A DNA stretch of 64,000 bases from Thermothelomyces thermophilus ATCC 42464 (lineage: Eukaryota > Ascomycota > Sordariomycetes > Sordariales > Chaetomiaceae). Below, piece by piece: positions 1 through 60,758 of the stretch. The notes under the pieces were generated by a model, which saw nothing but the letters and a program-made list of their open reading frames with translations, did not search any database and was not told where the DNA came from. The stretch spans positions 2,976,001-3,040,000 of the forward strand of contig NC_016477.1 in assembly GCF_000226095.1 (NCBI RefSeq), read 5' to 3'. Numbering within the stretch: position 1 is the first letter of the stretch; every line of letters starts with the position of its first letter. The translations under genes were made by a program, and so were the position numbers.

Positions 1-774
1 AGGCGGCTAAGCTACTATAATAGAGTCTTCTACTAGTTATTAGGTCTATTATAACGCTTCCTAGAGAAAACTAGTATCTTAGGAATCTTTGCTAAGATCG
101 AATTAATTAACTTCCTAGCTCGCTACCGCTAGTAATAACTCTATTAGCTACTCTTTACCTAGATGGTAGAAAGTCTTCTTATCGAAGTAAACGTTACAAG
201 TTATAATGACTCTATTAAGCTTAGATATCTAAATACAATAGATATTAGATATATAATATCCTATAAGATATCCTATTAGCCTATATAATAATACCTTAAA
301 GTCCTTTATATACTACTTAGCTTCCCTATCCTTATAGAGGATATATACCTAGCATTTATATATAAAGATACTACTTTAGTCTAGGTATAGGTTACTAGTT
401 AATATAATTGTTAAGCTAGGTTTGTACTAGCGAAAATACTATTTAAACTAGCTATAGAGTACTTCGTTAGGAGTTCTAAACAAGTAAGCACGGCTCGGGC
501 TTATCGTATATAAGTATACTACCGTTCATACACTTTCTAACTAGAGCTTTATAGGCAGATTCGTACTATTAAGTATCTTAATTAAGCATAAGATCAGTTC
601 TTACCTTACTTGCTCTACTAGTCTATTAGGCTTATAGGTATATAAAGGTAAGAGTTTAAGATTAATACCACTTTCTATAGCCTAAGTCTAATAGCATATT
701 AGTATACGCCCTATTAAATTAATTATTATAGTATTATTATCTTACTTAATCTTATAGATAGCAAGCCTATATTA
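1..774. repeat. RIP-decayed AT-rich repeat remnant
   Basis: This stretch is AT-rich and full of TA dinucleotides, with no open frame of useful length on either strand. That composition is what repeat-induced point mutation (CpA to TpA) leaves behind in Pezizomycotina. It presumably derives from transposable elements, but no domain or terminal repeat could be assigned. It runs off the left edge of the window. Confidence 0.7.
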
Positions 775-1200
775 TGTCACGGAAATATATATGCAGATGC
801 CGCCTAAGCCACTAGCACAAATAGGCCAATCAAGCCAAAGGAATGATAGACTAATCAGAACAGGATCATACTTAGTAAGAAATGATCCCAGCAGAGGATC
901 ACTAGCTCACGACATAAGCTAGGTAAGCCAGTATAGAGGATCACCACAACTGCTAGTGATCCTAGGATTATATATATATATAGATAGTCACTCGTTACGG
1001 TAGACTCTGAGAGTTCACTAGTGATAGTAACTCATAATCACAGTACTCATACCAAGCATTGCTAATTACTGTAAGAGACAACTCTAGTGTTGTTGTAAAC
1101 CCTTTGGCTTCACCGAATCCCTTAGACGACCTGCCTACTTGTCCCGCTTAATCTACCTTTGTCTGAACCCTTTTAGAAGAAGTCTGAGTTGGGTTTGTCA
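775..1200. repeat. LTR copy A (Ty3/Gypsy-type), detached
   Basis: It begins TGTCAC and ends GTCA, and it matches the repeat at 9063-9481 along its full length with scattered transitions. Its right-hand half also matches 1955-2406. No convincing target-site duplication was found around it. It is either a solo LTR or the 5' LTR of a second, mostly lost copy, because the first dozen bases after it resemble those after the LTR at 1955-2406. Confidence 0.75.
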
Positions 1201-1954
1201 TATATTAGTATCTTACCTAGCTCTCGAAATTCTATATAACTCTTATAATCTAGTCTAATGACTTTATTATTAAGAGGAAAGGGAAGAGCTTCCTATTATA
1301 TTTATTAACAATTATAAGTAGCTATTATAATCTATTAATCGCTTTAGGATAGTCAAATAGATCCTAGGCTACTCGCTAGAACAGATGTATAGACTTCTAC
1401 TTAGGTAGTATTTTCCTAGAGATAACCTTGCTTATATAAATATAAGTATAGCTCTTATACTTAATACGTGCCGTCCCCTTGATATAGACGTTTCTAGCGT
1501 TATTAATAAGCGCTTTTAATGCTTCTAGTCTAAGGTAGCTAGCTCTTAAGTGCTAAAGATCCTTAGTATCTTCCTTTATAGTAGGTAACGCTTACGTCTA
1601 GGACCTTCTACCATATATAATAAACACATTCTATAAAGATATACGAACGTTTACGATACCTGCTTTACTAATTAAGACATAGTCTAAGAGGCTCGAGTAG
1701 TAAGAAAGTAGCTTATATTCGAGAAAGGTATAATTATACTTACGTTCTAACTTATAAAGGATGACATTATTTTCTAATATTCCGAAACGTAATAAGTAAT
1801 CTAAGCTATAGTATTAAGCGCCTACCTTAAGCAATAGAGCTTCTAAGATAATATTAATATAGAATCCTTCAATAATAGCGATATCCTTAGGCATTAGGCT
1901 CTTGGTATACGGTCTATATAGTCTATCTAGAACGTTCTCGATCACCCAAGTACC
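1201..1954. repeat. RIP-decayed remnant between two LTRs
   Basis: AT-rich, TA-rich sequence with no long open frame. Only its first bases resemble the start of the internal region of the neighbouring Gypsy element; the rest matches nothing I recognise. It may be the left part of an older element truncated by insertion of the one at 1955-9481. Confidence 0.55.
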
Positions 1955-2406
1955 TGTCACAGATAAGTACATGGACGGCCCGGCAGGCTACAGCTAGGAC
2001 GCGGGATATTCCGATAGCCAATCACTTGACAGACCAATCAGAAGATTATTACTACCAAGACTAAGGTCTTCACTAGTAATAATAACATATCACCATCGAC
2101 AACGCGGAATCACGGAGTAAAAGGAGGAATAGTACTAGTAATAACTATTAAAGAGGGACAGATAATTATATATATATAGCTAGCTAGTCACTCGTTATAG
2201 TAGACTCTAGGAGTTTACTAGTGATAGCAACCTAACCTACAATCACAAGTACTTATACTAAGCATTACTAACTATTATAGGAGACAACTCTAGTGTTATT
2301 ATAAACCTTTTAGCTTTACTAAATCCCTTAGACGACCTATATACTTGTCCCGCTTAATTTACCTCCGTCTAAACCCTTTTAGAAGAAGTCTAAGCTAGGT
2401 TCGTCA
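1955..2406 (+). repeat. 5' LTR (variant B) of the Gypsy fossil
   Basis: Starts TGTCACAG and ends GTCA. From about 2165 to its end it aligns with the other two LTRs, including the block around the TTAGACGACCT motif and the AGAAGAAGTCT block. Its first 200 or so bases do not match them. The left part (U3 by position) is therefore a different subfamily sequence. Confidence 0.8.
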
Positions 2407-5400
2407 TACGTTACTATCACTCCCTTTGTTCTATTATAGTTTAGAACGGAGGTGACCTCGACCTCGACATCGATATAGCTACTAATATTACGGCCGAATA
2501 GCTGCTCGCTTAGCTTAGTCAACTCTAGCAGCAGATCTAGGAGTTAGACTAGAGAGATAAGGTTGCTTAAGCCCGAATTAAGGAACTCGAGAACGGTGAA
2601 AAGTACTTATAGAAACTGGTTAACGAGGCCTATGCCAAAATCGAAGCGCTCAAGACTGCCAAAGCGAGCCGCATTAAGATTAAACCACCTAGCAAATATA
2701 GAGGAACCAAGGAAGATCTTGTAGGATTCCTAACAAACCTCTAATCCTACTTCTAGCTTAATAACGACAAGTTTCTAGATGATAAAGCTAAAATTCTCTA
2801 TATAGCTATAAGATTAGAGGGCAAGGCACTTAGATAGTTTAAGCCTATGTAGAACGACTATCTTATTAAGGAAGACAAAGACGACCGAGACGTGTTTACG
2901 TAGGCAGTCTTCCGATCTTACGACCATTTCGAAGACGAGCTTCGGAAGGTTTTTAGCGATAAAGACAAGAAGATTTATATATAAGAAAGACTTGCTAATC
3001 TTTGACAGACTAAGTTAGTAGCCTCTTACGCTATATAGTTTAGATAGGATATATTTAAGTCTTAGCTTAACGACGAGGCATTAATATAACTATTCTATAA
3101 TGGCTTAAAGGAAAAGGTTAAAGACAAGCTATATAAGTATAATTAGCCTAAGACCCTGGACAAATATATTATATAGGCTATTAGAATCGATAATCGACTT
3201 TATATATAAGAGTAGTAGAAATAAGGACAAATAAATAGAACTATAGTTAAGGCTAACGACAAGAAAAAGCAAGTATACGTCAGTACCTCGTATAGGACGT
3301 ATCCTAGAGCTATAGATATAGATATAGCATAGAAGCAGGACAAGAAGAAAACGACTAAAGACAAGTCTAACATTACCTACTATAACTACAGAAAGAAAGG
3401 ACACTATAGACGAGAATATCAAAGCCTAAAGAAAGACTAGAAACCAGTCCCTAGAAAGGAAATTACGGCTATTAACGAAACCGCTAAGGATGTCATCGAA
3501 GTAGCGGCTACAAGCTATAAAGACAGGGACAGCGACATAGACAGTCTTAGATACGACGGCGACGGTAAAGATAAACAAGCACTGTACTCTGAACTGGTTA
3601 CTATAGATCTAGAAATAGGTCTTGCCGAATGGGATATAGTAGGAGAGTATATACTACTAATTTCGATTCTCCTAGCCTTAAGGTAGTAGGGTTTCATAGT
3701 TACCTAGAGGCGGGATAGATTGTAGATAACTGATACCTAAGGAATCGAAAGACCTGGACCTAATGTTCTATTCCTTTAGGAACGAATCGAATAGTACTAT
3801 AACAAAGTTTTCTAGCTTAATACGGAACTACGCGAATAGGATAAACACTTGATTTGACTTACCTAGTAGAGCAATAGAATAAGGGACAAGATAAGGGAAC
3901 TCCGATATATTGTAGAAACCATCAAAGGGGAACAGCCTATGACATATAATAGGCCTGACAGCTACGCCAAGCATTTTGACGATCAGCAACTTAGCTACAA
4001 CATATGGAACCCCGAGTACTAGTTTATATATATAAACTGTAGAAAAGACAAACGTACGTAGGAAAACTACTAGAAGAAATACTCCTACCTTAGCATTAGA
4101 GTACCTATAGCCTATATACAGTAGGAAGGATTTGGAAAAGAGTTCTAATACCTTCTAGGCAATGCTATATAACTATACCTGCGATACAAGGTATATATAC
4201 AAGTGCCCTAGTTCTAGTATATAGTATACAAATGCTAATACCACTTTCGCGACAAATTCGAAAGCAATTACTAGCCGACCTGACAAGGAAATAAGGATAG
4301 AAGCCTCTGCCCTATAGAATAGGTCTATAATGTAGGAAACAGAGCGGCCAAATTACTCTAGAAGATCGAAGCCCGTGATCTAGAAGGCATTACGGTAGTA
4401 CCAAAACGAGCCTAGCCTAGGTACTACGGAATAGGACGAGATATATAGGACTCGTGCTAGAGTAATAACTACCTCTATCACGCAGACGAAAAGAAATCGC
4501 GAATTTAGGAGCTCTAGATGAAGCTATAGTATATACGATAAAAAGTAGAACAGACTTAATGGTAGGAAGCTATAAGCACTTAATAGCTTATAGAAATAAG
4601 CACGATTGACAAAGCCGCTATTAGCCGAACAACCAAAGAGGTTAGCACTAACCTAGGAAATGGGTTAGGGCCCTTTGAGGGGCCTAGAAACCATTAATGC
4701 CTGTGTAGCGGCGAGAGGTAGCGTAGTATAGGAGGAACTAGTATAAGAGACCACTATATCAAGACCTCCTAGTAGAAATATAGGAAATCGCCGTAATCTT
4801 TGGACAATAGTAGTAAGATAAGTGACTATGGATAATAGTATAATAGAAGTAGTATAAAATGCTTGTACTAGTAGATAGTAGAGTAGAGATGAACCTGATT
4901 TTGCCGACGCTTATAAATTAGCTATAAATACCCTAGAGAATAAAGCGAAAGTATAGCATAGTCAAAGGGCTATTTCTAATGTAATAGGTATATAGGGAGA
5001 CTAAACCGATTGACATTACTATAGCAGGGAAGACTATAGTAGTCATATTTAGTATTATAGATATAGGTAACGATAAAGATATAATATTAGGGTTACTATA
5101 GTATAAAGATTATAACCTAGACATTAGCTAGAAGAATAGTAGCTACCTATAACCCTAAACAGAGTTATATTTAACTAGTAAGATAGGGAGTATATAAGGA
5201 TTGTAAGCAGACAATACTTAAGGGAAGGCATATCCTACAGATCTACTATAAAAGATAGATAGTAGCAGACAGACTACTATAGACTCTAGAAGAAGTAGTA
5301 TAATGACACCAACGTTACGATAGAAGGAACGAGCTAAACCGCCGATAGCTATTCTCTCCGTTAACGAATACAGAGCACTATAATTAGAGTAGTAGGTTAA

Positions 5401-8400
5401 GATAGGAGAAATTACTAGCATCGCTATAGATGGAACTAAGTTTGTATACTATTAGAAAACCGAGAGACGAGACAAGACTAGGGAAGTACCGAAGGAATAC
5501 AAAGGATACCTAGCATTCGAACCGAAATATCTAGAAGGACTACTAGAATATAGCCTATAGGATTACAAGATCAAGCTTAAGGAAGGAGCATGACTAAAGT
5601 TCTTTAAGATTTACTATATAAGCTAGATATAGAACGAAGAACTTAAGCGATATTTGGAGGAGAACTTCCGAAGAGGATATATCTGCCCGTTGATATCGCT
5701 AGTAGGCTATCTAATTCTATTTATACCTAAGAAAGATAGAAAGCTATAGTTATATATTAACTATCGGTAACTTAACGAATAGACTATGAAAAACTAATAC
5801 CTGTTACTACTAATCTTACGGCTCCGAGATTAGTTAGCAGGAGCCTAATATTTTACATATTTTGACTTGCTATTGGCCTATAACTATATATAGATCAAAG
5901 AAGGCGATGAGTGGAAAACGGCCTTTAGGACACCCTTTAGCTACTACAAGTACCTTATCATGCTATTCGGACTTATAAACGCGTTAGCAACGTTCTAAGC
6001 CCTAATTAATCAAGCTATCTACCCCTTTTTCGACAAATTTATAGTATATTATCCTGACAATATACTTATCTTCTCTAAGACGATAGACAAATACCGAAAG
6101 TATATAAAAGCAATGCTAGGTACGCTATATATATACAAACTATCAATTAACAAAGGAAAGAGCGAATTCTATATTAGGAAAACGGTATTTTTGGGATATA
6201 AAATATCTCTAAGATAAATTCGGATAAAACCTTTAAAAGTTAAAGCTATTAAGAATTAGCTACGACCGATATCAGTTATAGAAGTATAAAGCTTTATCGG
6301 ATTTACAAACTTCTACTAAATGTTCATTAGAAATTTCGGAGCAATTATACGACCTTTGCACGAACTCACTAAGAAGAGTACTAAATTCCAATAAGAAAAG
6401 CAATATAAGCAAGCATTTATATAGATCTATAACGCTATTACCGAAGATCTAGTACTAGTACTGCTAGACCCTAAGAAGCTATTCGAGGTAGAAACAGACG
6501 CTTTAGACTATACTATCGGAGGACAATTAGGATAACAAGACGAACAAGGAAAGCTATATCCTATAGCCTTCTTTTTAAAGAAGCTTAATAGACTACGTCT
6601 TAATTATCCGATCTACGATAAGGAATTACTTATAATTATTAAAGCTTTTAAGGAATAGTAACTATACCTTAGTAGTACGATTGAACCGGTATAAGTATAT
6701 ACGGATTACAAGAATTTACAATACTTTACAATAACAAAGGAGCTTAATAGATAATAAATATAATAGGTAGAATTCCTTATAGAATTTAACTTTAAGATCC
6801 GCTATAAAAAGGGCAAAGAGAACGTACGAGCAGACATCTTAAGCTAACGAACGGATTATACGGAAGGATAAACGGAAACAATACTATTATTATTCAAGGA
6901 ACGAATAGACGGAACGCTATATTACGAAACGTAGACACCTATAGAAGATAATCCACTTAACTCGTTCCTAGAATGTTATATAATCTTTTAAGAAGAAAGG
7001 ATTGACAAGATATAGTATTAAGTAGCACCTAGACTAGTAGTACCTAACAGAGTAAAAGAAAGAGATAGGAAACTCTAGTACCGAGGCAAAGTATATATCT
7101 ATAATAGGGATTAATAGCTACGAATGATTCGAGAACTCTATAAGTCGAAACTTGGAGGATATAAAGGAGTTACGAAGACTGTCGCATAAGTTAGGAAACA
7201 CTATGACTTTCTATAGTTAATAGTATAAGTTAAGGAAGTTGTATAGAACTATGATATTTGTAATCAAAGCAAAACGGCACGATATAAGCTATATAGGTTA
7301 CTTTAGCCACTGCTAATAGCTAATGAACTATAGAGTTTAGTCATAATAGACTTTATTATAAAGCTGCTAGAATCTAAGGATATAGCTATAGGAGTAATCT
7401 ACGATAATATTCTCACTATAATAGATTGCCTAACTAAATAGGTATACTTCTTTCCCTACAAAGAGACCTAGATAGCGGAATAGTTAGTAGATATAATCTA
7501 TCGGCAAGTTACATTAGTATATGCTTAGCCGTAAGAATAGATCACCAATAGAGACACCAAGTTTGTATTAAAGTTCTAGTAAGCGTTAATATAACGATTA
7601 GACGTTAATAGCAAGCTATCAATAGCATATTACCCATAGATTAACAGATAAACAGAACGACTAAACCAAGTTATTAAGTAGTATCTCCGTTCTTACATTA
7701 ACTATTAGTAAGACGACTAGGTTATACTATTACTAATAGTATAACTCGCTTACAATACGATACTAATAGAAACAACCAAAGTCATACCGTTCTTCGCAAA
7801 CTATAGATATAAAGCAGACCTTAGGTAAGGACTAGAGGTCATAGTACTAAGAGCAGTAGTCAAAGTGAAACAAATATATATACTATATAAAAAGCTTAAA
7901 AAGGAACTCGAGTTTGTCAAGACTAGAATAAAGAACTACTATGACAAATATAGGCTCGAGGGACCTTGCCTAGAGAGGGGAGACAAAGTCTACTTAATTA
8001 TACAAAACCTACGAACCAAACAACCAAGCATAAAGCTAGATTTCAAAAAGATTAGACCCTTCGTTATTAAAGAACGAATTTCGACATCTAACTACCGACT
8101 ATCGTTACCATTATCTATATGACTATAGACGGATGTTTTTTATATTTCGCTTCTCGAACTAGCACCGAAAAACACTAAGGTTGCTATATATATCGAAGCA
8201 AAAGATAAGGAAGAAGAATAAGACATTAAAGAAATTCTAGATTTATATATTATTAATAGGGAACTATAGTATCTAGTTAAATAGCTTAATTTTGGACTAG
8301 AAGATAGCTTATAGGAACTAGTTAAGAACTTAAACTACCCTAAGAAACTAGAATAGTTCTATTAGCAGAACCTAGATCGGCTAAAGGCAAACCTAGGATA

Positions 8401-9062
8401 GAATCGAAAATAACGCCTTAGTTAATAATGTTAACGCTACTATTAAGTTATACGATAGCCCCTAATTCCTACTATTTTACTGCCTCTAATTCGTCTAGAT
8501 TCGATAAACCCCGTATAACTATATCTGCCCCTTTCTCTACTAGGAACTCTCGTTATTTACGAACCTAAGTTAGATAGGCTAATGCCTTAGAAGCTTTATG
8601 TTAATATTCTTATAGCAAGGCTTCGGCCTCTTTCTCTTTAGCCTTTAAACGACGTTGCTTACGTATAATACGATCTATTACATTACAATTAGAGATATAC
8701 CCTTATAAGGAAATAGGAACTTATAAGAAGAAACTAGAACGCTAGAACTATCATAAGCATGACCCCGACATATATAAGCCTTATAGCGACGAGATTTTTT
8801 AATCATTTTATATATTTGGTTATACTCTACGTAATAGGAATACGCTATTACTATGAACCTGTGATTAGAAATAAACTAAGCTAAACGCTTATAGCGAATA
8901 GACGCTAGGGATCTATGTATATTAGATAGTATAATTAATAGTACGAAGGGCGACAAGGGACTAAGGAGAAAAACACGTACAAAGAACGTAAGGGATGTTA
9001 GCGCTATTTGAAACGGCCTAAAAGAAGGCTTTTAGGTCGAAAGCCTTAAAGGGAGGGCATCA

Positions 9063-9481
9063 TATTACAGAAATATATATACAGATACTACTTAGACTAC
9101 CGGTATAAACGGGCTAATCAAGCCAAAGGAACAAGAGGACCAATTATAACATAGGAAGTATAGTAATTATTACGCTTACTAGCGATCAAGGTAATCACCA
9201 CTATACAATCACTTACGATCACTATAATTAGGAGTAATCACTAGGATTATATATACATATAGATAGTCACTCATTAGGTAGACTCTAAGAGTTCACCAGT
9301 GATAGTAACTTACAATCACAGTACTTATACTAAGTACCGTTGTTAACTACTGTAAGAGACAACCCTAGTGTTATTATAAACCCTTTGGCTTTACCGAATC
9401 CCTTAGACGACCTGCCTGCTTGTCCCGCTCAATCTACCTTCGTCTGAACCCTTTTAGAAGAAGTCTGAGTTAGGTTTATCA
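9063..9481 (+). repeat. 3' LTR (variant A) of the Gypsy fossil
   Basis: Follows a purine-rich tract (AAAGGGAGGG, ending near 9058), as expected for the plus-strand primer site. It matches the LTR at 775-1200 over its full length, but matches the 5' LTR at 1955-2406 only in its right half. Confidence 0.82.
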
Positions 9482-10200
9482 CAGTTTAGGGTCTATAGTA
9501 TATACTAGCTAGTGTTATAGCTATCCTATCTGCTTACTAACATCTATAGTATATATGATATCTTTATAAAAGGAGTCTTATAATTATATAAATTCGGCTA
9601 TAATGGTTACATTAGAAGGTATTAAATCTATAGATATTAAAGGTAATAATCCTTCTAGGAGTTACTCCTAGGAAGCTAAGATAAGGTTATCTCTAGCTTA
9701 CTTATAGGTTAAGCGCTATAGAACTTCTAGATTTAGCTTATAGTTGCCATTAAGGTTAATAAATCCCTATATACTAGCAAATTTAGCCTATAACTATAGT
9801 TTAATATATTACAAGTTCTAGAAACTAGGCCCTATAAGGCATATAGAAGTCTTAACTAGGATCTCGGATATAATAGACACGTCGTTAAAAGCATATTAAA
9901 GCAAGGTAAGAGAGTTCGTAATAGAAGAAGCTACTACTAATATTAAAGATACGTCGGCAGAGGAGTAGTCAAGGCGCCGGGCTTATAACTGCCGAATATA
10001 GTAGGAGCTCTAGGAGCGTTAAAAGCAGTCTATAGTAGGTAGCTATACGAAGGAGACAGTACCTTGTTGAAACTATCTACAAAAGAGACAAAACGACTAA
10101 TATTTATAGATAAAGGAACTGGCCAATGCGTTGGCAACGACGCCTTATACGTTGTGGCACGTATGTGGCTAATACTCTTAGAAGCTCTACAGCTTCTGAC
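9482..10200. repeat. RIP-decayed remnant at the edge of the AT-rich block
   Basis: TA-rich sequence with no intact frame. A stretch near 9950-10070 has a residual basic, glutamine-rich coding look, but I cannot assign a family. The composition changes to ordinary GC content at about 10,140-10,250, marking the edge of the RIP-affected block. Confidence 0.55.
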
Positions 10201-11129
10201 AATCTGAGAATGGTGACTGCCGAATCAGTCGTCTCCAAGACTGGATAATTTGATTAATAAGGCAGCCAAAACGAGCAAGAACTACTGGAACCTATATGCA
10301 TTTACCTTACTAACCTCTAGAGAGGGCCATCTAATAAGTAAGGTACCTAATTCAACTTTGATCATCCCGAGCTTTCCTCGACCAACTTTGCGGTCCTTCC
10401 TCAAAAAGTCCAAATGCCCGTGTTCCCCAAGCGTCCCACCACCCTATGCACCTACCTAAGATACTTAACCTCCCTTCCAGGTTAAGCTCGATTCAGCTGG
10501 ATCCTCTCTGAGCTCCTCGCTGGTTGGCAGCAGAATCCTCCTTTTCCCTCCTAGACAAACGAAGGCACAGCCCTGCACGTATCGTGCGACGACTGTGTTA
10601 TGCCGCAATTGCGTTGCACAGACAATCAGACCTCGAAAATGCCCGCCCTGCACCTTTCCGGCCTTTGTTCCGATGGACTCCCTTGACTCCGCCTTCCATG
10701 CCGTTTGCTGCCATCAGCTTGCTGCCAGCTTCCGTCAATGAATTGCCACCGCGGAAAATCAGCACCAACCACGAGGCCGGGATCCGCGGACTCAGATGTC
10801 TCGCCGGTTAGCCGCAGCAGCACCGCAAAACCCATACAATCTTGGGCGTTTGATTTTGTGCCTCGGGGTAAGCTTCCCCCTTCTTCATGAGCATAGGCCA
10901 CAGGCACCCCAACTGGGCAGGCTTGAGCTAACCATGGCTGGCTGGGACTGATGACCGCTCTTCTCCTTCTATCGTTTCCCCATTCATGCACTAGAACACT
11001 CGCTCCTTTGACCGAACAATGAATCATCTACCGGAGAGTTTTATACACTCGTTCAAGTTGCTCTTGTTTTTTTAACTCGGATCAAGACTGCTAGAGGGCC
11101 CCCTTCCTGTGACAGCATCACCAGCAGCT
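10201..11129. other. Intergenic, upstream of the membrane protein gene
   Basis: Normal base composition returns here. Short overlapping frames occur on both strands but none resembles a protein. A TTTATACA element at about 11,039-11,046 lies roughly 85 bases before the next start codon and could serve as a TATA box. Confidence 0.5.
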
Positions 11130-16832: not shown

Positions 16833-17561
16833 CTAGGAAGAGCCATCATCTCCTTGGGGCATTGGTGGCGCTCCTCGTTGTTCCACTTTGGCCTCCAACA
16901 GCAGCGGGTAGAGGTTCGCAAAGGCCTCGAAGACGTCCTCCCTCTTCTTGGCGCCGGTCAGGACGACCTTGCCGGTGGTGAAGACGAGGCACTTGAGACT
17001 GGGCCTGACCATGGTGTAGACCAGGCCGGGGAACAGCTCGGGCTCGTGGCGGGCGGACTGCCAGTAGCGGTGCGAGATGCGCTCGAGGCGGACGAGGAAG
17101 CCGCAGGCGGCGGAGCCGACAAAGTTCTGGACGCGGAAGTCGGCGAGGCGGGTGGGGAAACCGCACTTCTGGATGGCGCGGGCGTGCCGGCGGGCGGCCA
17201 GGCGCGCGAGGCCCGCCGACTTGGCGCCCGTCACCACCATGCGGCCGGACGCGAAGACGAGCGTGGTGGTGCGCGGCTCGCGGATCCGCATGACGAGCGC
17301 GTGGAACTTGCGCCGGTTGTACTCGACGTTGCGCGCGTGCTGCGCGATCGCCTGCAGGTCCAGCCGGCACTCCAGGCTCGCCGTCGCCACCACGTTCTGG
17401 ATCGTCGGCACCGGCCACTCGGGCCTCGCCCTGCTAATACCCTGCCACCGGGGCTCTTCTGTCGATCCTGACGAGCCAGGCTGATTATGGTCTTGGCCTT
17501 GGCCTTGCGGACAGGCAAAGGGAGGACTGGAGGGTGGGCTTGGTTTTGCGTTGGGGAACAT
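16833..17561 (-). CDS. Divergent TATA-box-binding protein (TBP) paralogue, intronless
   Basis: A single exon of 242 residues: a loose Pro/Gly/Gln-rich lead of about 50 residues, then the two direct TBP repeats (about 52-130 and 143-222). TBP nucleates transcription pre-initiation complexes in the nucleus. Numbering against yeast TBP, the four DNA-intercalating phenylalanines are kept (F86, F103, F177, F194), as are the two groove asparagines (N56, N146) and the TFIIB stirrup PELFPGL. The TFIIA-facing helix keeps its basic residues, but the acidic SEDDSK loop reads SAGLAR. Many other core positions differ, for example SLECRLDLQ, RISHRYWQSA and NLYPLLLEAK. Fungal TBP is normally among the most conserved proteins and its gene usually has introns, so I read this as a second, fast-evolving copy, perhaps a retroposed one. 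It is convergent with the sugar transporter. The open frame over the whole core argues that it is functional. Confidence 0.88.
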   Translation of the reverse strand: MFPNAKPSPPSSPPFACPQGQGQDHNQPGSSGSTEEPRWQGISRARPEWPVPTIQNVVATASLECRLDLQAIAQHARNVEYNRRKFHALVMRIREPRTTTLVFASGRMVVTGAKSAGLARLAARRHARAIQKCGFPTRLADFRVQNFVGSAACGFLVRLERISHRYWQSARHEPELFPGLVYTMVRPSLKCLVFTTGKVVLTGAKKREDVFEAFANLYPLLLEAKVEQRGAPPMPQGDDGSS

Positions 17562-18154: not shown

Positions 18155-18191
<37 letters not shown>

Positions 18192-18467: not shown

Positions 18468-19955
18468 ATGCCATCGGTGTTGTCTCTCTTCCGGCACAGT
18501 CGAGACATGCCGCGTCCCGTCCAGGCCGGCGACGACGGACAGAGAACTGTGGCGAAAAAGCGACGAAGCCGGTTTTCCATGGTGATTCCGGGCAGCTCCA
18601 GCCGAACGGCTCGCAAGAGTGCCCCCTTTGACAGCGCCCTGGAACCTCTGGAATGGAAGGGTGCGGCGATGGCCGCAGACGTGCCGGAACTGCCATCATT
18701 CCCACTATATCAGCACTTTGCGTCGACGAGGCACCTCAGTGATTCGCATCAGAGGCGGCAGCGTTATTATGAGAAGTCAGAGCCAAGGGGGGATCGAAGA
18801 CTGTCTCGCGCGGCGACTGTTTCCGATTTCCACTCGCTACGTCCTCAAAGCGAGCTGATTCCGCGTAAGAGCGATGTGACGACGCTGTCGACGAACGCAC
18901 CCCCGGCATGTGATCGAGCTGTTGAGTTGGCGAGGCTCTATCGGTCCATTTTGCCCGACTTTCGTACCATATGTGAGGAAGAGGAAGAGAAGGAGGAGGA
19001 TGAGGAGAAGAAGAAGGGGGAAACGAGGGAGAACGAGGGTGGTAGGCGGGAACGGGAAGCGGGCGGGTACGGAGGGCAGCGACCAAAGAACGGTAGTCTC
19101 GGCGCAGCATCGACGCAAGGTGTCACTGAAAAAGAGAGAGACAGACGGAAAGATGGCGGCCTCTGTCCAGAAACCCACGCCGGCGAGCCACCGCATCGTC
19201 CAGCAGGTGGTTGTTCTTCCCTTACCGCCGGGGCCTCCAAGACTTCTGCTGTCAAGCACCACAAGTTCCCGGACGGCGCTGCCCAACGGCACCAGCACCA
19301 CCGCCCATCCGATCCGAACACTCCTGGGCAAAGTAAGCACGCGTGGCCGCTCCCCATCCGGCCTCTACCACCATCTTCTTCCCCGCAGACGACAGCAACT
19401 CCCGAGACCACAGAGGCGGGGCTCGTCCGGGAGACCGAGAACGAACACGACGACCGATCAATCCTCAGCCAACACAGCACCGTCGGCCTGCAGATCTGCA
19501 CCGAACTGCTCGTCGACCGGCTGATCAGGGCGCTTGGCCTCCAGCGGCGGCACGAGAGAGGAGGTCACGCGGGGCCGAGCAGCCACGGCCGTGTTGATGA
19601 AGGTTTCAAGGTAATAGGCGAGAAAGAGATGGAGAGGGAGGAGGGGGATGGTACGGAACATAGAGAGAGCAGCAGCAAACAGTTGGAGATGCTGCTGCTC
19701 ATTGAGGCGTACGAAGGCCTGTTGGGGTGCTGCAGGAGAGAGACGGCGGCGACGGCGGCAACCATGACCACCAAGACTGAGTCGGTTGAGGCGGGCGCCG
19801 GCGGGAACAACGCGGCACAGCCGGGCGCTGACAGGAGCAGCAGCAGCAGCAGCAGCAGCAGACCGGTCGCGGAAGCCGTGCCCATCTTGGAACACTGGCT
19901 GGAGACGCTGCATGCGCTGTATGAGGCAACGTTCGAGGAGCGTGGGGAGGCTTGA
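18468..19955 (+). CDS. Hypothetical protein, low-complexity middle
   Basis: The frame is open for 495 codons from an ATG at 18468. I do not recognise a named domain. Visible parts are a short helical segment near residues 152-165 (AVELARLYRSILPDF), a Glu/Lys-rich run after it, a long Pro/Ser/Thr/His-rich middle, a helical stretch (VGLQICTELLVDRLIRAL), another (QLEMLLLIEAYEGLL), a run of eight serines and a final helix (ILEHWLETLHALYEATF). The spacing of these helices recalls an uncharacterised family common in Pezizomycotina, but that is memory of a pattern, not a search. A good intron candidate at 19333-19388 (GTAAGC to CCGCAG, 56 bases) would join a different upstream frame to the same C-terminus, so the middle of the model is uncertain. 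The two ends are more secure. Confidence 0.55.
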   Translation: MPSVLSLFRHSRDMPRPVQAGDDGQRTVAKKRRSRFSMVIPGSSSRTARKSAPFDSALEPLEWKGAAMAADVPELPSFPLYQHFASTRHLSDSHQRRQRYYEKSEPRGDRRLSRAATVSDFHSLRPQSELIPRKSDVTTLSTNAPPACDRAVELARLYRSILPDFRTICEEEEEKEEDEEKKKGETRENEGGRREREAGGYGGQRPKNGSLGAASTQGVTEKERDRRKDGGLCPETHAGEPPHRPAGGCSSLTAGASKTSAVKHHKFPDGAAQRHQHHRPSDPNTPGQSKHAWPLPIRPLPPSSSPQTTATPETTEAGLVRETENEHDDRSILSQHSTVGLQICTELLVDRLIRALGLQRRHERGGHAGPSSHGRVDEGFKVIGEKEMEREEGDGTEHRESSSKQLEMLLLIEAYEGLLGCCRRETAATAATMTTKTESVEAGAGGNNAAQPGADRSSSSSSSSRPVAEAVPILEHWLETLHALYEATFEERGEA

Positions 19956-52445: not shown

Positions 52446-53099
52446 GATGTGAGGTTTGAGGGTTGCTGGCAAAGTTGGGATGTCCCAAGTGCCGCAACAG
52501 TCGAAAGTTTTGAACTTGCCCCGAAGCTTGAGAATCCAAGGTCCAGAGCTCGCGAGAGTGCTCGTTGCCATTGGCCGCCAGTGCTGCTCCAGGTTCTTGG
52601 CGGTCACTGCGGTCTACACTACAACCGGGGCCTCGAGCGCACTCCACTCCTGCTGGTGGGGCCTGGCAGCTCGTCCAATCAGACGCGCTCTACACAGATT
52701 TTTTCTCCCAGGTTCGAACGACGCGAAGTCCCGGCTCATCCTGATAAGATTGAACGAGGCCAATTTTTGACCTTGTGTTCTCATCCGACTTCTTCGGTCG
52801 AGGGAAGAAGCACAGGCGATACTCTTTGATCAACACCTCGAATGAGCTGCTCTCCAACTTCGGCGAGTTGAAAGCAGCCCTTTTTCATGTACTAGAAGTC
52901 GCCGACTTTCCTTTTCTCTTGTTTTATTACAACCACTATTCTGTTTAATGCATTGAGTTTTGCCTTGCTTCCCAACAAACTTCCCTCCTTCCGGTGGAAG
53001 CCCGCCCCTTTCCCTCATCATCTCTCTTCTCTCGGACGGCCAGGCAGCAGAAACATTGCCACTGCTGCGCGAGCCCTCCCCCCCCCCTCTCCTCTCAAG
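52446..53099. other. Divergent promoter, atp25 / mitochondrial RNA polymerase
   Basis: 654 bases between start codons of two mitochondrial gene-expression genes that point away from each other. Pyrimidine-rich patches precede the polymerase start (52,978-53,098 on the plus strand, with a run of nine C near 53,079). No gene is supported inside. Confidence 0.65.
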
Positions 53100-56000
53100 A
53101 TGCTCGTCCGCCCCGGCGCCGCACGACAGACCCTCCCGGTGCGCCATCTTCTCGCATCCACCCCCCTACGACACTCGACGAGAGGCGCGGCCGTCAATTC
53201 GCTTCCCAATGTGTCCGAGAGCCGTCGGATCCTGACTACCGGGTCCGACGCGCGCCCATGGAAGAAGAAGTCGTATCGGGCCCTTGTCGGGTTTGAGCGC
53301 AACCTGGCCACTGCGCTCGAAGACCACCGGTTTGGCGACGATGTCCCGTTCGAGGGTCTTTCGACCGGATTGGCCTCCCAATACCAGCCGCAAAAGTCAC
53401 AGCCACCGCTACACATGCTGAGGCCTTTCAATGTCAACTCCACGCTGGTTCTCGCCGAGCCGAAACCGTACCCGCCCAAACAACGCCTCAACCCTATGGG
53501 TATTCCCGGTGACCTGGAGGAAATGCTCTCGGTATTCGAAGCCTGCGTTCAGGTCGGAAGGCTGGATCGTGCCGCGTTGGTTTTGAAGAGATTCGAGAGG
53601 ATGAAAACACTGGAGCCGCACCAGGCAGTGGACCTGCACAATCGATATCTTCAAGGGCGTGTTGCTCAGCTCATGAATGAGCCTTCAAAGGAGAAGGCCG
53701 AAGAGGTACACAAGTGGTTCGAACTTCACATTCGGGGTGCTCGACTACCATTCACCCCCATCACCATCGCGTATATGCTCAAAACAACCCTTCTCACATC
53801 TGAAGGCTCGACACGGGCGGCTCGGATAGATCGCTACATGAGCATGATGCCTCATCAGAACGCCAATGAACCGCTGGATCTGGGGAACGTCCTGAGCGAT
53901 GAAGATCTGGAGACCATCGCTGAGGTGTGCCCCGCCTACTATATTCCCGAAGATGCTTCCGGTGCAGCCGAAGCTGAAGCCCTCGAGGAGGACGAGAGCA
54001 CCCATCTGGAGGATACGGAGACCCAAGATGCCCAAAGGAAAGCTTCGAGCGGCACGCCCGAGGTCCGTGAAACTCCTCAGAAGGGCATGGGACTCAAATC
54101 TTTGAAGACAGCTCTCTCGCTGCTGTCCGAGCTCCCGGAGGGCTTGGATATTGCATCCCTTCCGCTCTCACAACGGCGCGAAGTTCAGGCTAGGTTAGAA
54201 AGGGATTGTGTCGATGCTGCCATTGCTAGGTGGCGGGAAGAGAACGAGCAGCTGATGAGCATGGGCCTCAATACCCAGCTGTCAACCCCCTCCCTAAACT
54301 CCAAGTTGTACGACTGGCATCAAGCTCTGGAGGCTCGACTTATCCAAGAGCAAGCCAAGGTTGAGGCCTCCTTGTCGGCGCCTCGGAAGTCGCGAGAAGA
54401 CATGGAGCGCTGCGTCTACGGACCCCATCTGCTGCAATCACCCGCAAACCGCCTTGCCGCCGTCGCCATTCTCAGCGCCCTCAGTAGTCTGGCCATGCAT
54501 GGTGCGGACAAGGGCATCCCGGTCTCTAACATGGTCCAACAGTTGGCCAAGATTGCGGAGGAGGACATTCGAGCCCAGGCGATAGCCAAAAACCTTCCTA
54601 AATCGAAACCACGCAAGCAGAAAAGCGCGCGCCAGCTGATGCGACTCCACGACGCCGCCCCGACCGCGACCACCAAATCGTCACCCACCGCCACCGCCTC
54701 CCCAGCTTCCCAGCCCGCCACGAACAGCGAGCCTTCCGAGTTTGCGTCCCGCTGGCCCATAGCCATCAAGGCGAAGTTCGGCGCCGTGATCCTGGGGGCC
54801 CTGATGGACACAGCAAAGATCGTGGTGGAGCGGGAGCATCCAGAGACGAAGGAGAAGGTGACTCAGGTTCAACCGGCCTTTACGCACACTGTGCAGCTCA
54901 AAAAGGGGAGGAGAGTTGGTGTTATTCAACCCAACCGCTCACTGATCGAGCTCATGAAGCGCGAGCCCAGGGGAGAAGCGTTGGCTCGCCATTTGCCCAT
55001 GGTTGTTGAGCCCGAGCCGTGGTCCAAGTTTGACAAGGGTGGCTTTATCACGTCGCCGAGCCCTCTTGTCCGTCTGAAGAACCACGAGAAGGATCAGCGC
55101 ATCTATGCCGAGGCGGCCATCGAGCGGGGGGACATGGAACAGATGATGAGGGGCCTGGACGTGCTCGGGAAGACCGCCTGGAAGATCAACCGTCCCGTAT
55201 TCGACGTGATGCTGGAGGCCTGGAACACCGGGGAGGAGTTTGCAAACCTGCCGGCGCTGGATCCCAAGATCCCCATCCCTCCGGAACCGGATTCGACCGA
55301 CGACCCGATGAAGAGGCGCCTGTGGCTCAGGGCGGTGAAAGCTGCTGAGAACGAGAAGTCGGGGCTGCATTCCGTCCGGTGCTTCATGAATTTCCAGCTC
55401 GAGATCGCACGGGCCTTCCGGGATCAGACCTTCTATTTCCCGCACAACATCGACTTCCGTGGGCGCGCCTACCCGATACCCACCTATCTCAACCACATGG
55501 GTGCCGACAACATGCGCGGTCTGTTGCTCTTCGCCAAGGGCAGGCCTCTCGGGAAATCGGGGCTGGCCTGGCTCAAAGTCCACCTCTCCAACGTCTACGG
55601 ATTCGACAAGGCTAGTCTCAAGGAGCGTGAAGAGTTCGCGGACCGGAACCTTGAGAACATCTTCGACTCTGCGGACAACCCGCTTACCGGGAAGCGCTGG
55701 TGGCTTCAGGCCGAAGACCCTTGGCAGTGCCTCGCCACCTGTTTCGAGTTGAAGGCAGCCCTGTCCTCTCCGGATCCCACCGCTTACGTCTCTCACCTCC
55801 CCGTTCACCAGGACGGGACGTGCAACGGCCTGCAGCACTATGCTGCTCTTGGTGGTGATACGTGGGGTGCGCAGCAGGTCAATCTTCTGCCCGGTGATCG
55901 CCCTGCCGATGTGTACTCGGCGGTGGCCGAGCTAGTCCAGAAGCAGGTGACGGAGGATCTCGCCAACGGCAACGAGTTTGCCCAGGCCATGGATGGCAAG

Positions 56001-57308
56001 ATTACTAGGAAGGTCGTGAAGCAGACGGTCATGACCAACGTCTACGGAGTTACCTTCGTTGGCGCCAAGAAGCAGGTCCAGAAACAGCTGGACTCGCTGT
56101 ACCCAGACATCGAGAAGGAAACGGGCCTGAGTTCGGGCGTGCTAGCGTCGTACATTGCCGCCAAGGTTTTCATGGCGCTGTCAACGATGTTCCGTGGCGC
56201 CCATGACATCCAGAACTGGCTCGGCGAGATCGGAGGGCGCGTGTGCCGTGCCGTGACTCCGGAGCAGCTAGACCGGATTGCCGAAGCTTCGGGCGAGAAG
56301 GTCGGGTCTGGCGAGGAGTCCAAGTCCACCAAGAAGAAGGCCAAAGCGTCGTCGAAAGCGGGAGACGAGGATTTGGCCTCTCACTTCCGCAACACCCTCG
56401 TGTGGACGACACCGCTGCGGATGCCCGTGGTCCAACCGTACAGGAAGAGCGGCACCCGGCTGATTTCGACTTGCCTGCAGGATCTGGTTCTCACCAACGT
56501 GGATCGGGATGATCCAGTGAACCGGCGAAAGCAGCTGCAGGCTTTCCCCCCCAACTTTATTCATTCGCTGGATGCCAGCCACATGATGCTGTCGGCTCTC
56601 GAGTGCGACGCCATTGGCCTCACATTTGCCGCCGTTCACGACTCGTTTTGGACGCACGCGGCCGACGTCGATGCCATGAACCGAGTGATCCGCGATGCCT
56701 TCATCCGTATCCACCAAGAAGATGTCATTGGGCGCCTCAAGTCCGAGTTCGAAGCACGGTACCGGGGGTCCATCTACCGGGCAAAGATTGATTCCTCGAC
56801 CGAGGTGGCCAAGAAGATCATCGATTGGCGCAAGAAGAGCCGCATGGGCGCCAAGGATGAACTGCTGCTCGAGCGGCGGCGTCAGATCCTCTTACGCTCA
56901 CTCGACCCGGAGGAGGTGCGGCAAGGGAAGGAAATGGTGACGCCTGCCAGCATTTTTGAGTCGATGGCGACCCCCGACATGGTGGCTAACGATGTCGATC
57001 CCGAAGAGATGTTGTCCGTGGGCGCCGAGGATGAAGACGGAGACGGCCACGACGGCGAGCCCATCGAAAGGGAAGACGTCAGGAACAAGGTGACGGAGGG
57101 CCTGAAGAATTTTGCGGCACACCTGAAGGAGCTCCACGGTACCAACTACTTCGTCATGGAAATGAACAAGCCCAAGAGGAAGAAGGAACGGAGTGGCTCG
57201 AAGCCATCGCAGGTCGAGCTCTGGCTGCCGCTGACGTTCCCTGCGATACCCAAGAAGGGCGACTTTGACGTGACCCAGCTCAAGGACAGCAAGTATTTCT
57301 TCTCTTGA
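53100..57308 (+). CDS. cyt-5: Mitochondrial DNA-directed RNA polymerase (T7-like)
   Basis: Transcribes the mitochondrial genome; orthologue of yeast RPO41 and Neurospora CYT-5. One exon of 1402 residues. The start ATG at 53100 opens a basic presequence (MLVRPGAARQTLPVRHLLAS). A pentatricopeptide-like N-terminal extension fills about residues 130-300, the N-terminal domain follows, then the phage-type core: DFRGRAYPIPTYLNHMGAD, the first catalytic aspartate in HQDGTCNGLQHYAALGGD near 903-920, the O-helix RKVVKQTVMTNVYGVTF near 970-986, NFIHSLDASHMML and the second aspartate in HDSFWTHA near 1180-1187. A Lys-rich insert (KSTKKKAKASSK) near 1078-1089 and a long acidic loop near 1300-1325 precede the final VELWLPLTFPAIPKKGDFD and the KYFFS end, where the C-terminal aromatic residues close the active site in phage polymerases. 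The frame continues open upstream without an ATG. Confidence 0.96.
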   Translation: MLVRPGAARQTLPVRHLLASTPLRHSTRGAAVNSLPNVSESRRILTTGSDARPWKKKSYRALVGFERNLATALEDHRFGDDVPFEGLSTGLASQYQPQKSQPPLHMLRPFNVNSTLVLAEPKPYPPKQRLNPMGIPGDLEEMLSVFEACVQVGRLDRAALVLKRFERMKTLEPHQAVDLHNRYLQGRVAQLMNEPSKEKAEEVHKWFELHIRGARLPFTPITIAYMLKTTLLTSEGSTRAARIDRYMSMMPHQNANEPLDLGNVLSDEDLETIAEVCPAYYIPEDASGAAEAEALEEDESTHLEDTETQDAQRKASSGTPEVRETPQKGMGLKSLKTALSLLSELPEGLDIASLPLSQRREVQARLERDCVDAAIARWREENEQLMSMGLNTQLSTPSLNSKLYDWHQALEARLIQEQAKVEASLSAPRKSREDMERCVYGPHLLQSPANRLAAVAILSALSSLAMHGADKGIPVSNMVQQLAKIAEEDIRAQAIAKNLPKSKPRKQKSARQLMRLHDAAPTATTKSSPTATASPASQPATNSEPSEFASRWPIAIKAKFGAVILGALMDTAKIVVEREHPETKEKVTQVQPAFTHTVQLKKGRRVGVIQPNRSLIELMKREPRGEALARHLPMVVEPEPWSKFDKGGFITSPSPLVRLKNHEKDQRIYAEAAIERGDMEQMMRGLDVLGKTAWKINRPVFDVMLEAWNTGEEFANLPALDPKIPIPPEPDSTDDPMKRRLWLRAVKAAENEKSGLHSVRCFMNFQLEIARAFRDQTFYFPHNIDFRGRAYPIPTYLNHMGADNMRGLLLFAKGRPLGKSGLAWLKVHLSNVYGFDKASLKEREEFADRNLENIFDSADNPLTGKRWWLQAEDPWQCLATCFELKAALSSPDPTAYVSHLPVHQDGTCNGLQHYAALGGDTWGAQQVNLLPGDRPADVYSAVAELVQKQVTEDLANGNEFAQAMDGKITRKVVKQTVMTNVYGVTFVGAKKQVQKQLDSLYPDIEKETGLSSGVLASYIAAKVFMALSTMFRGAHDIQNWLGEIGGRVCRAVTPEQLDRIAEASGEKVGSGEESKSTKKKAKASSKAGDEDLASHFRNTLVWTTPLRMPVVQPYRKSGTRLISTCLQDLVLTNVDRDDPVNRRKQLQAFPPNFIHSLDASHMMLSALECDAIGLTFAAVHDSFWTHAADVDAMNRVIRDAFIRIHQEDVIGRLKSEFEARYRGSIYRAKIDSSTEVAKKIIDWRKKSRMGAKDELLLERRRQILLRSLDPEEVRQGKEMVTPASIFESMATPDMVANDVDPEEMLSVGAEDEDGDGHDGEPIEREDVRNKVTEGLKNFAAHLKELHGTNYFVMEMNKPKRKKERSGSKPSQVELWLPLTFPAIPKKGDFDVTQLKDSKYFFS

Positions 57309-58767: not shown

Positions 58768-60000
58768 TCACCGCACCTGAGCTCCCTTGAGTGAGACGAC
58801 CTTGCAGACGCCGCCGCTGGCCGTCACCAGCCTCCCCAACCCGGTCCTGCCTTCCAGCGCCTCGACCACGCCGGCGTCGAACGCGACCTCGAGATCGTCC
58901 GTGGTGGTGAAGCCGGGCTGGAAGGTCTCCCAGATCTTCTTCTTGGGGTTGAGCACCTTCTCGGGCTCGCCCTCCCAGCCTTCGAAGAAGACGCGCTCGC
59001 CGGCCTTGGCATCGGCTGGCGGGTTGACCAGCTCGACGGGGCCCTTGTGGTCGTCGGCCTCGCCCTCCTTGACGCGGGGCGAGGCGGCGAGGACCATGGC
59101 GGCCGACTTGATGCCGCGCATCTTGACGGGCTTCAGGTTGCACACCACCACCACCTTGCGGCCCTGCATCTCCTCGAGCGGGACGAGCCCGTTGAGGCCC
59201 GAGCACACGGTCCGCACCACCTGGCCCTCGTACTCGGACGTGTCGTCGGTGCCGGGCGCGTCGCCCATGGCGATGCTCGAGACGTAGAGCGAGTCGGCCT
59301 CGGGGTGCTTGATCGCCTTGAGGATGTGGCCGACGCGGAGGTCGATCAGGCAGGGAGACAGCACCGCCGGGGCCGCCGGGGCCGCCGGCTGCTTGGGCGC
59401 CCGCTCCTTCTTCTCCTTCTTCTGCTTCTTGGCGGCCGCGCCGGCCTCTCCCGCGACCGCCGCCGCCGCCTTGTCCTTCACCTCGGCGGCCTCGTCCGCC
59501 ACCACACCGGCGGCTTCCTTTGTCCGATCCACGAGCGTCTTGTTGTCTCCATCGGCGCCGACGCCCCCCGCCGCCGCAGCAGCAGCAGCGGCCTTCTCCT
59601 TCTTCAGCCGCTCCTTCTCGGCCTTGGCGTCGACGGGCGGCTTGACGTAGAGGATCTCCTCGGCATCGACCTGCACCTTGTCGGCGTCGGCGACGTTGAG
59701 GCCGAAGAGCGGGCTGTTCTGGACGAAATCGACGAGGCGGACGATGTTGGGGCGGCCGTTCTGGCCGGTGCGCTGCTCCGGGGTCCAGGACTTGACGAGC
59801 GGGGCGAGTGACTCGTACAGGGCAACGTCGGCCTTGCTGGGCTTGGTGCCGATGGCGGTGGTGCGGGTCGCGAGGTCGGCATTGAGGGAGTCGAGGAGGG
59901 CGTCGGAAGCACCAGCCTTGATGGAGGCGGCCTTGTCGAGCCACGCCTGGATCTCGGACTCCTCGGTGGGGGTGTACTTTTGCGCGTCGAGGGCGGCCAT
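58768..60000 (-). CDS. arc1: Arc1/EMAPII-type tRNA-binding cofactor of aminoacyl-tRNA synthetases
   Basis: One exon; from the first ATG (60000) 410 residues. An N-terminal GST-C-like domain (about 1-125, with SWTPEQRTGQNGRPNIVRLVD-type helix; binds synthetase partners), an Ala/Lys-rich linker (about 130-215) that grips tRNA non-specifically, then the EMAPII-like OB fold starting LIDLRVGHILKAIKHPEADSL, with VVRTVCSGLNGLVP, VVVVCNLKPVKMRGIKS and AMVLAAS, and the final TSGGVCKV-type strand (TASGGVCKVVSLKGAQVR region). Yeast Arc1 delivers tRNA to methionyl- and glutamyl-tRNA synthetases in the cytosol. Upstream of the ATG the frame is open for more than 90 codons; 38 codons of it, from a CTG at 60112-60114, read as a mitochondrial presequence (see findings). 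Confidence 0.92.
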   Translation of the reverse strand: MAALDAQKYTPTEESEIQAWLDKAASIKAGASDALLDSLNADLATRTTAIGTKPSKADVALYESLAPLVKSWTPEQRTGQNGRPNIVRLVDFVQNSPLFGLNVADADKVQVDAEEILYVKPPVDAKAEKERLKKEKAAAAAAAAGGVGADGDNKTLVDRTKEAAGVVADEAAEVKDKAAAAVAGEAGAAAKKQKKEKKERAPKQPAAPAAPAVLSPCLIDLRVGHILKAIKHPEADSLYVSSIAMGDAPGTDDTSEYEGQVVRTVCSGLNGLVPLEEMQGRKVVVVCNLKPVKMRGIKSAAMVLAASPRVKEGEADDHKGPVELVNPPADAKAGERVFFEGWEGEPEKVLNPKKKIWETFQPGFTTTDDLEVAFDAGVVEALEGRTGLGRLVTASGGVCKVVSLKGAQVR

Positions 60001-60758
60001 GATGCGCGGGTTGGACAGCGAGATGGCGTTGAGCGGCCGGGACGAGACTTGGCGCAGGGGAGAGACGCTTCGCAGGGCTGCTGCTGGGCGTGCGGCGGCT
60101 CGTAGGGAAAACAGTTTGGGCAGATGGTAAGGCGGAACCTCGAAGAAGAAAGACTCCGGGTTGTTTGGTTGGTGATTGAATTTTGTTGGCTTAGCGAGGA
60201 CTTGGGGTCTCTCTCTCTTTCTGTTGATGGTGGGGTTGGAGTCGTCAAACAATTTTGACCCGGCAGGAAATGCGGGGCAAAATTGGGTTTGGGTCAAGAC
60301 GAGGGGCACTTCTCTCGATCCTTGCTAAGTACTGTACCGACCGAGTACAGTACCTAACTGAGTCGTAACAGGGATGAAGATGTGGGCCTGTGCGGTGTGC
60401 CTTTAACGAGCGGGTCCCTTGCTCGTGACTGCGCGCGGGCGTTTGACGCGTTTTCGATCTCATTGGCGATCACCCAGTCGCGTGGATCGCGCGCCCTTCC
60501 ACTCATTACCGTTCCTGCCCTTCTGCAAACCCAGCATCTATCCGGTTAAACTTGTCCATTGTGCCGCAGAATCCTGCATCGGTCATCGTATTGTTTCCAT
60601 GCAGTCTCTGTAGCATCTGATGTTTTCGTGCCTTACTGCATTCCGATTGTGACCGGTTTTGCTTCTTTTCTTCTGAATTCTTCCTCATCACGCTCGTTCG
60701 CCATCCTCAGTCGTCGTATTCAACAACCACCCGTTGATCCCTCCTCATTCTCCCGACA
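60001..60758. promoter_or_regulatory. Divergent promoter, arc1 / LSH-type remodeller
   Basis: About 760 bases between divergent ATG codons. The arc1-proximal 114 bases are open in the arc1 frame as a possible non-AUG leader. GTACTGTAC (60,329-60,337) and its complement GTACAGTAC (60,345-60,353) form an inverted repeat with a 7-base spacer, a candidate regulator site. Confidence 0.6.

Follow-up and report, generated by a model that had tools for sequence, protein, structure and literature searches.

Besides a canonical TATA-binding protein (TBP) encoded elsewhere in the same genome, the window (i.e., the whole stretch of 64,000 nucleotides analysed here) carries on its minus strand a second, intronless TBP gene, designated TBP2, which is very probably real, old and maintained by selection. 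A second, diverged Spt3 gene (Spt3B) occurs in this genome as well, and it can tentatively be proposed, at somewhat less than an even chance, that the old and selected TBP2 forms together with Spt3B an alternative pair for TBP delivery, feeding a shared TFIIB and TFIIA.

The TBP2 gene and the canonical TBP

The coding sequence of TBP2 and its two repeats are positioned as follows:

16833..17561, minus strand: TBP2 coding sequence, 242 aa in a single exon, stop included, recognised by its translation, a PF00352 match of 185.8 bits and its match to solved TBPs
17163..17408, minus strand: N-terminal TBP repeat, PF00352 at 103.2 bits in the genome scan, 56/92 residues as in the canonical copy
16893..17141, minus strand: C-terminal TBP repeat, PF00352 at 87.2 bits in the genome scan, 37/79 residues as in the canonical copy

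The ATG stands at 17561, with an in-frame TGA one codon upstream, and a single frame of 242 codons runs free of stops and frameshifts to the stop codon ending at 16833. The PF00352 match (E 1.1e-55; curated cut-off 22.9 bits) comprises two stretches. The earlier note had described an intronless TBP at this place, and both the coordinates and the nature of the gene are borne out, the strand being what it left out. TBP2 matches 35 distinct PDB sequences at E up to 0.001, and over residues 47-223 its alignment with yeast TBP (chain 1rm1) is gapless; yeast numbering (TBP2 residue + 13) is used below. No match was found for the first 41 residues, and AlphaFold run on TBP2 without an alignment gave a mean pLDDT of 40.

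A profile search of the genome (38.74 Mb in 7 contigs, hit counts being lower bounds) located TBP (PF00352) matches at no fewer than two places, namely TBP2 and one canonical gene on contig 4:

G000:C4:2591500-2596500, 1807-2797: canonical TBP gene, with three introns (54, 108 and 55 bases) between its four coding exons

The four exons, joined by hand across the three introns, encode a protein of 257 aa. The earlier note had allowed that the gene in the window might turn out to be the sole TBP of the genome; with an intron-containing canonical gene present elsewhere, this is not the case. The canonical core is identical at 172/172 positions to chain 7z7n, which we take to be Chaetomium TBP, at 157/172 to yeast TBP and at 146/172 to Arabidopsis TBP. 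The TBP2 core, on the other hand, shares 94/172 positions with the genome's own TBP, 95/172 with yeast and 91/172 with Arabidopsis; at 94/172, it lacks the near-invariance expected of a canonical fungal TBP orthologue. All three canonical introns are missing from TBP2, which suggests, and fits with, an origin from a processed copy or else the loss of every intron. In a six-taxon tree of TBP2 and five canonical TBPs, two of them with identical cores, the best placement of TBP2 is as sister to the fungal TBPs, none of the six placements being rejected (AU 0.20-0.86), and seven of its sites are fungal-like with nine plant- or animal-like. Scans of IMG/VR with TBP2 and with the canonical core as queries, together with one prokaryote genome scan, returned no relatives.

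When the canonical core was taken to the same nucleotide divergence in 2000 neutral simulations, 60 of the 172 residues were kept on average and 72 at most, against the 94 observed, which excludes chance as the source of the resemblance; 79/2000 simulated sequences were free of a stop. Pairwise NG86 estimates between TBP2 and the canonical core are dN 0.38, dS 1.06 and dN/dS 0.36. Since there is next to no change in the canonical core, dN falls almost entirely on the TBP2 side, and the omega proper to TBP2 is therefore higher than the pairwise value, although an omega of 1 is excluded. In the codon model, dS became infinite under free maximum-likelihood estimation; omega was instead held at a series of fixed values, which gave log likelihoods of -1115.8 (omega 0.01), -1126.1 (0.1), -1153.1 (0.5) and -1176.7 (1.0). 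The likelihood thus climbs toward small omega with dS saturated, and omega = 1, some 51 log units worse than 0.1, is strongly rejected. Synonymous saturation combined with this rejection indicates that TBP2 is both old and selected. The selection posited earlier is upheld in this manner by the simulations, the codon model and the contact residues kept (see below), the omega of 1 expected of relaxed constraint being excluded.

Concerning the neighbourhood, the window opens on an AT-rich block (1-10300) with a strong RIP signature (GC 0.35 over 1-10500, TA/AT 1.57, (CA+TG)/(AC+GT) 0.52), in which 111 of the window's 119 TATAWAW sites fall and which ends about 6.5 kb from TBP2. As a source of TBP2 divergence, RIP was ruled out, TBP2 being GC-rich and devoid of RIP indices. 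Some 600 bases 5' of the TBP2 ATG lies a perfect (CT)17 tract (18157-18190), followed by a divergently oriented open frame of 495 aa (18468-19955) with GA-rich and CAG repeats and no match in Pfam/NCBIfam. Further along, a frame of 1451 aa (52953-57308) corresponds to a single-subunit, mitochondrial-type RNA polymerase with both domains (PF00940 and PF14700), and an Arc1p-like frame with a tRNA_bind domain occupies 58768-60309.

Kept contacts and altered surfaces

The features of the core considered in the following are:

16992..16994, minus strand: Lys codon at yeast position V203, concave face, read from the sequence; altered-specificity role presumed
17013..17015, minus strand: Thr codon at yeast position R196, read from the alignment; backbone-contact role presumed
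17025..17045, minus strand: EPELFPG, the TFIIB-contacting stirrup (yeast 186-192), conserved; role of the glutamates as given in the available text of PMC7221094
17046..17111, minus strand: rewritten C-lobe segment (yeast 164-185), 18/22 residues changed, including G174R and F182S; F168, R171, L172 and E173 kept
17202..17219, minus strand: SAGLAR in place of the acidic loop SEDDSK (yeast 128-133), from sequence and alignment
17301..17303, minus strand: His codon at yeast position A100, beside F99, read from the sequence; DNA-facing role presumed

TBP2 retains F99, F116, F190 and F207, which we take to be the DNA-intercalating phenylalanines, N69 and N159, presumably the groove asparagines, and the stretch EPELFPGL, so that all the contact residues listed in the earlier note are indeed present. 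Besides, a role for F116 is given in the available text of PMC7221094, where the acidic positions C.L3.2 and C.L3.4, E284 and E286 of human TBP, are also described as TFIIB contacts; by a human-to-yeast offset of 98, which is our own mapping, these correspond to E186 and E188, both kept in TBP2. Five positions invariant from human to yeast, namely A100, G174, F182, R196 and V203, are altered in TBP2, and both R196 and K201 are lost. Of these, A100, R196 and V203 are assumed to face the DNA, R196 as a backbone contact and V203 as one of the three residues of an altered-specificity triple mutant, the residue names of which were sought in the literature and not found. On a list of presumed base contacts, 15/16 are kept, compared with 70/126 of the remaining positions that do not vary among four canonical TBPs (P 0.002), or 15/17 if V203 is added; on a wider list of presumed DNA-side positions, the figures are 24/34 against 70/138 elsewhere (P 0.028). 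As such, the conservation of DNA contacts advanced earlier holds for the four phenylalanines and both asparagines but not for the DNA side as a whole, in view of A100H, V203K, R196T and the 24 of 34 wider positions.

The replacement of SEDDSK by SAGLAR is as the earlier note had it, and from this an altered contact with TFIIA or a regulator had been proposed. The basic charge of the helix that follows, H2, is nevertheless kept (K133R, R137, K138R, R141 and K145), which makes an altered TFIIA contact the weaker guess; the same helix also carries S136A, Y139H, I142A and L146C. A basic cluster of the N-lobe is described as common to TFIIA, Mot1, Brf1, Brf2 and TAF1 in the available text of PMC7221094, the assignment of its labels to H2 residues being partly our own.

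The changes are densest in the C-lobe segment 164-185, where 18/22 residues differ against 60/150 elsewhere; since this segment was picked for being the densest, the fair figure is that 258/20000 shuffles reach a window as dense. Comparison was made with five canonical TBPs, i.e., the genome's own, 7z7n, yeast, Arabidopsis and human, the first two being identical. While 48 of the 131 positions invariant among these five are changed in TBP2, the segment itself contains 16 such positions, 12 of them changed, the remaining 6/22 being naturally variable. According to the available text of PMC10136053, G174E in yeast TBP weakens the interaction with Spt3 and R171E that with Spt8, and spt3(E240K) suppresses G174E; likewise, F182V is given as NC2-defective in that of PMC1896006. 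The substitutions G174R and F182S of TBP2 differ from those tested in yeast. Together with a second Spt3 gene, the dense change in this segment turns the altered regulator contact proposed earlier toward Spt3 rather than TFIIA.

A second Spt3 and the possible roles of TBP2

Matches to PF02269 were located at three or more places of the genome, namely a TAF13-like gene, Spt3 and the diverged Spt3B, the latter lying on contig 2 at a distance of some 114 kb from its end, with TBP2 on another contig:

G000:C2:5337600-5341100; 1402-1443, 1513-1602, 1721-2608: Spt3B gene, apparently intact, containing both introns of Spt3 and a run of Asn

The hand-joined model of Spt3B, with a start codon chosen by hand, gives 339 aa, with two introns whose positions coincide with those of the Spt3 introns; in the model of Spt3 itself, the first intron, a long one, is tentative. 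Its PF02269 match reaches 80.8 bits (cut-off 27), and PDB chains of Spt3 match it over both the PF02269 part and the C-terminal part. Spt3B and Spt3 are identical at 95/191 positions over three blocks, including 41/80 and 14/28 in the C-terminal blocks, whereas Spt3 and chain 9ynu share 77/80 in the middle block. In 2000 neutral simulations, 71/191 positions were kept at most against the 95 observed (15/2000 without a stop), and moving omega from 0.05 to 1 costs about 51 log units. In all likelihood, then, Spt3B is a real and selected second Spt3; judged by its sequence, it is as diverged as TBP2. E240 is kept in both copies, and beside it Spt3B has T238A, F239R and M241W, in a block that is only 41/80 identical anyway.

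Partners were sought by genome profile across eleven families, those of TBP and Spt3 included. Extra copies of TFIIB or Brf1 were not seen, the two TFIIB-type places being TFIIB and Brf1; the same search gave a single place for TFIIA gamma, a single TFIIA alpha/beta over the cut-off and a single place each for Mot1, TAF1, TAF11, Ada1 and Spt20. PF00808, the family including NC2, matched at six places at least, which may include an extra NC2.

In the preferred reading, TBP2 and Spt3B would work together, given their co-occurrence in one genome and the known contact between TBP and Spt3. As part of SAGA or of a complex resembling it, Spt3B would load TBP2 at some promoters only, where TBP2 would then bend DNA and recruit ordinary TFIIB and TFIIA. 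In TBP2, G174R would face the region paired with E240 of Spt3, where the pairing of Arg with Glu could keep TBP2 attached to Spt3 instead of releasing it. As Arg174 opposite a kept Glu240 need not weaken the contact, an escape of TBP2 from Spt3 is not claimed. Moreover, the hold of NC2 may be weaker owing to F182S, and a different DNA preference may follow from V203K, A100H and R196T. A fuller version, i.e., a matched TBP2-Spt3B loading pair acting as a second SAGA-like route, loosened from NC2, with a shifted reading of the core promoter (V203K, A100H) and with TFIIB, TFIIA and polymerase shared, perhaps in sexual development, is conceivable though doubtful.

Alternatively, TBP2 could be a specialised TBP without a dedicated partner, serving the ordinary machinery while partly uncoupled from Spt3 and NC2, with Spt3B as an unrelated duplicate. 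G174R, F182S and the rewritten segment 164-185 would then mark the uncoupling, and the TFIIB and basic-patch residues kept would fit the ordinary machinery; the existence of a second Spt3 and the compatibility of R174 with the kept E240 nonetheless speak against it and make it unlikely.

TBP2 might otherwise be a backup doing the canonical job at a low level, its changes being tolerated and mostly GC-biased. Relative to the canonical copy, the changes are dominated by I>V (10) and K>R (9), TBP2 has 57 GARP residues instead of 41 and 34 FYMINK residues instead of 61, and its GC3 stands at 0.85 where the canonical copy has 0.73, all of which indicates that part of the divergence is GC-biased drift and is, like the DNA and TFIIB contacts kept, as a backup would have it. 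The drifted core spoken of earlier is thereby partly right. Considering that 40/78 core changes fall outside the conservative pairs (a list of our own) and that positions invariant from human to yeast are altered (A100, G174, F182, R196, V203), such a backup role is rather improbable.

A competitor or dominant-negative role, in which TBP2 would occupy promoters or TBP partners and support no initiation, accounts for partner contacts kept alongside the loss of R196 and K201 and the gain of V203K and A100H, but sits badly with an intact TFIIB stirrup and all four intercalating phenylalanines, and is very improbable. Least probable of all is a decaying duplicate, i.e., a once functional TBP copy with constraint now relaxed, for which a core identity of 94/172, very low for TBP, and a dN/dS of 0.36 almost wholly on the TBP2 side can be cited against a frame with 0 stops and 0 frameshifts, neutral simulations keeping at most 72/172 residues and the strong rejection of omega = 1.

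Relation to known systems

If true, a selected second TBP together with a second Spt3 in a filamentous ascomycete would represent a distinct instance of core-promoter specialisation, and would open to test whether duplication of the TBP-Spt3 contact defined by yeast genetics can yield two pairs insulated from each other. In the available text of PMC9934661, TBP belongs to a group of 14 families, most of them single-copy, whose orthologues are strongly conserved across 30 ascomycete genomes, and its index for Fusarium oxysporum compared with yeasts is 1; that of PMC4605657 speaks of few TBP studies in filamentous fungi, and in that of PMC7221094 duplication of TBP is connected with multicellularity, for which animals serve as the example. 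A literature search, mostly confined to journals free of subscription, found among the papers listed no report of a filamentous fungus with two TBPs.

With canonical fungal TBP (yeast Spt15, 7z7n), TBP2 has in common the two repeats, the gapless core, the phenylalanines, asparagines and stirrup and a basic H2; it differs in having no introns, a rewritten segment 164-185, A100H, V203K and R196T, and 41 unmatched residues at its start. Vertebrate TBPL2 (TBP2/TRF3) is likewise a second TBP with a different N-terminus, no orthology being implied; it is described, in the available text of PMC7755920, as acting in mouse oocytes in a TFIIA complex outside TFIID. The core of TBPL2 is described as highly similar to that of TBP, whereas the fungal TBP2 is far more diverged (94/172). 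Metazoan TBPL1 (TRF2/TLF) resembles TBP2 as a diverged TBP paralogue without the N-terminal expansion, but has a Trp at N.L5.1 according to the available text of PMC7221094, where TBP2 keeps a Phe (F116). Altered-specificity TBPs are laboratory mutants, e.g., the triple mutant of the second TBP repeat whose three substitutions allow it to read TGTAAA, as given in the available text of PMC10005294; TBP2 has V203K and I194V and keeps L205. The closest parallel for the proposed pair is the Spt3-TBP module of yeast SAGA, in which Spt3 contacts TBP and G174 and E240 are genetically linked, in the available text of PMC10136053; E240 is present in both Spt3 copies here and, unlike in the yeast module, TBP and Spt3 each have a diverged second copy.
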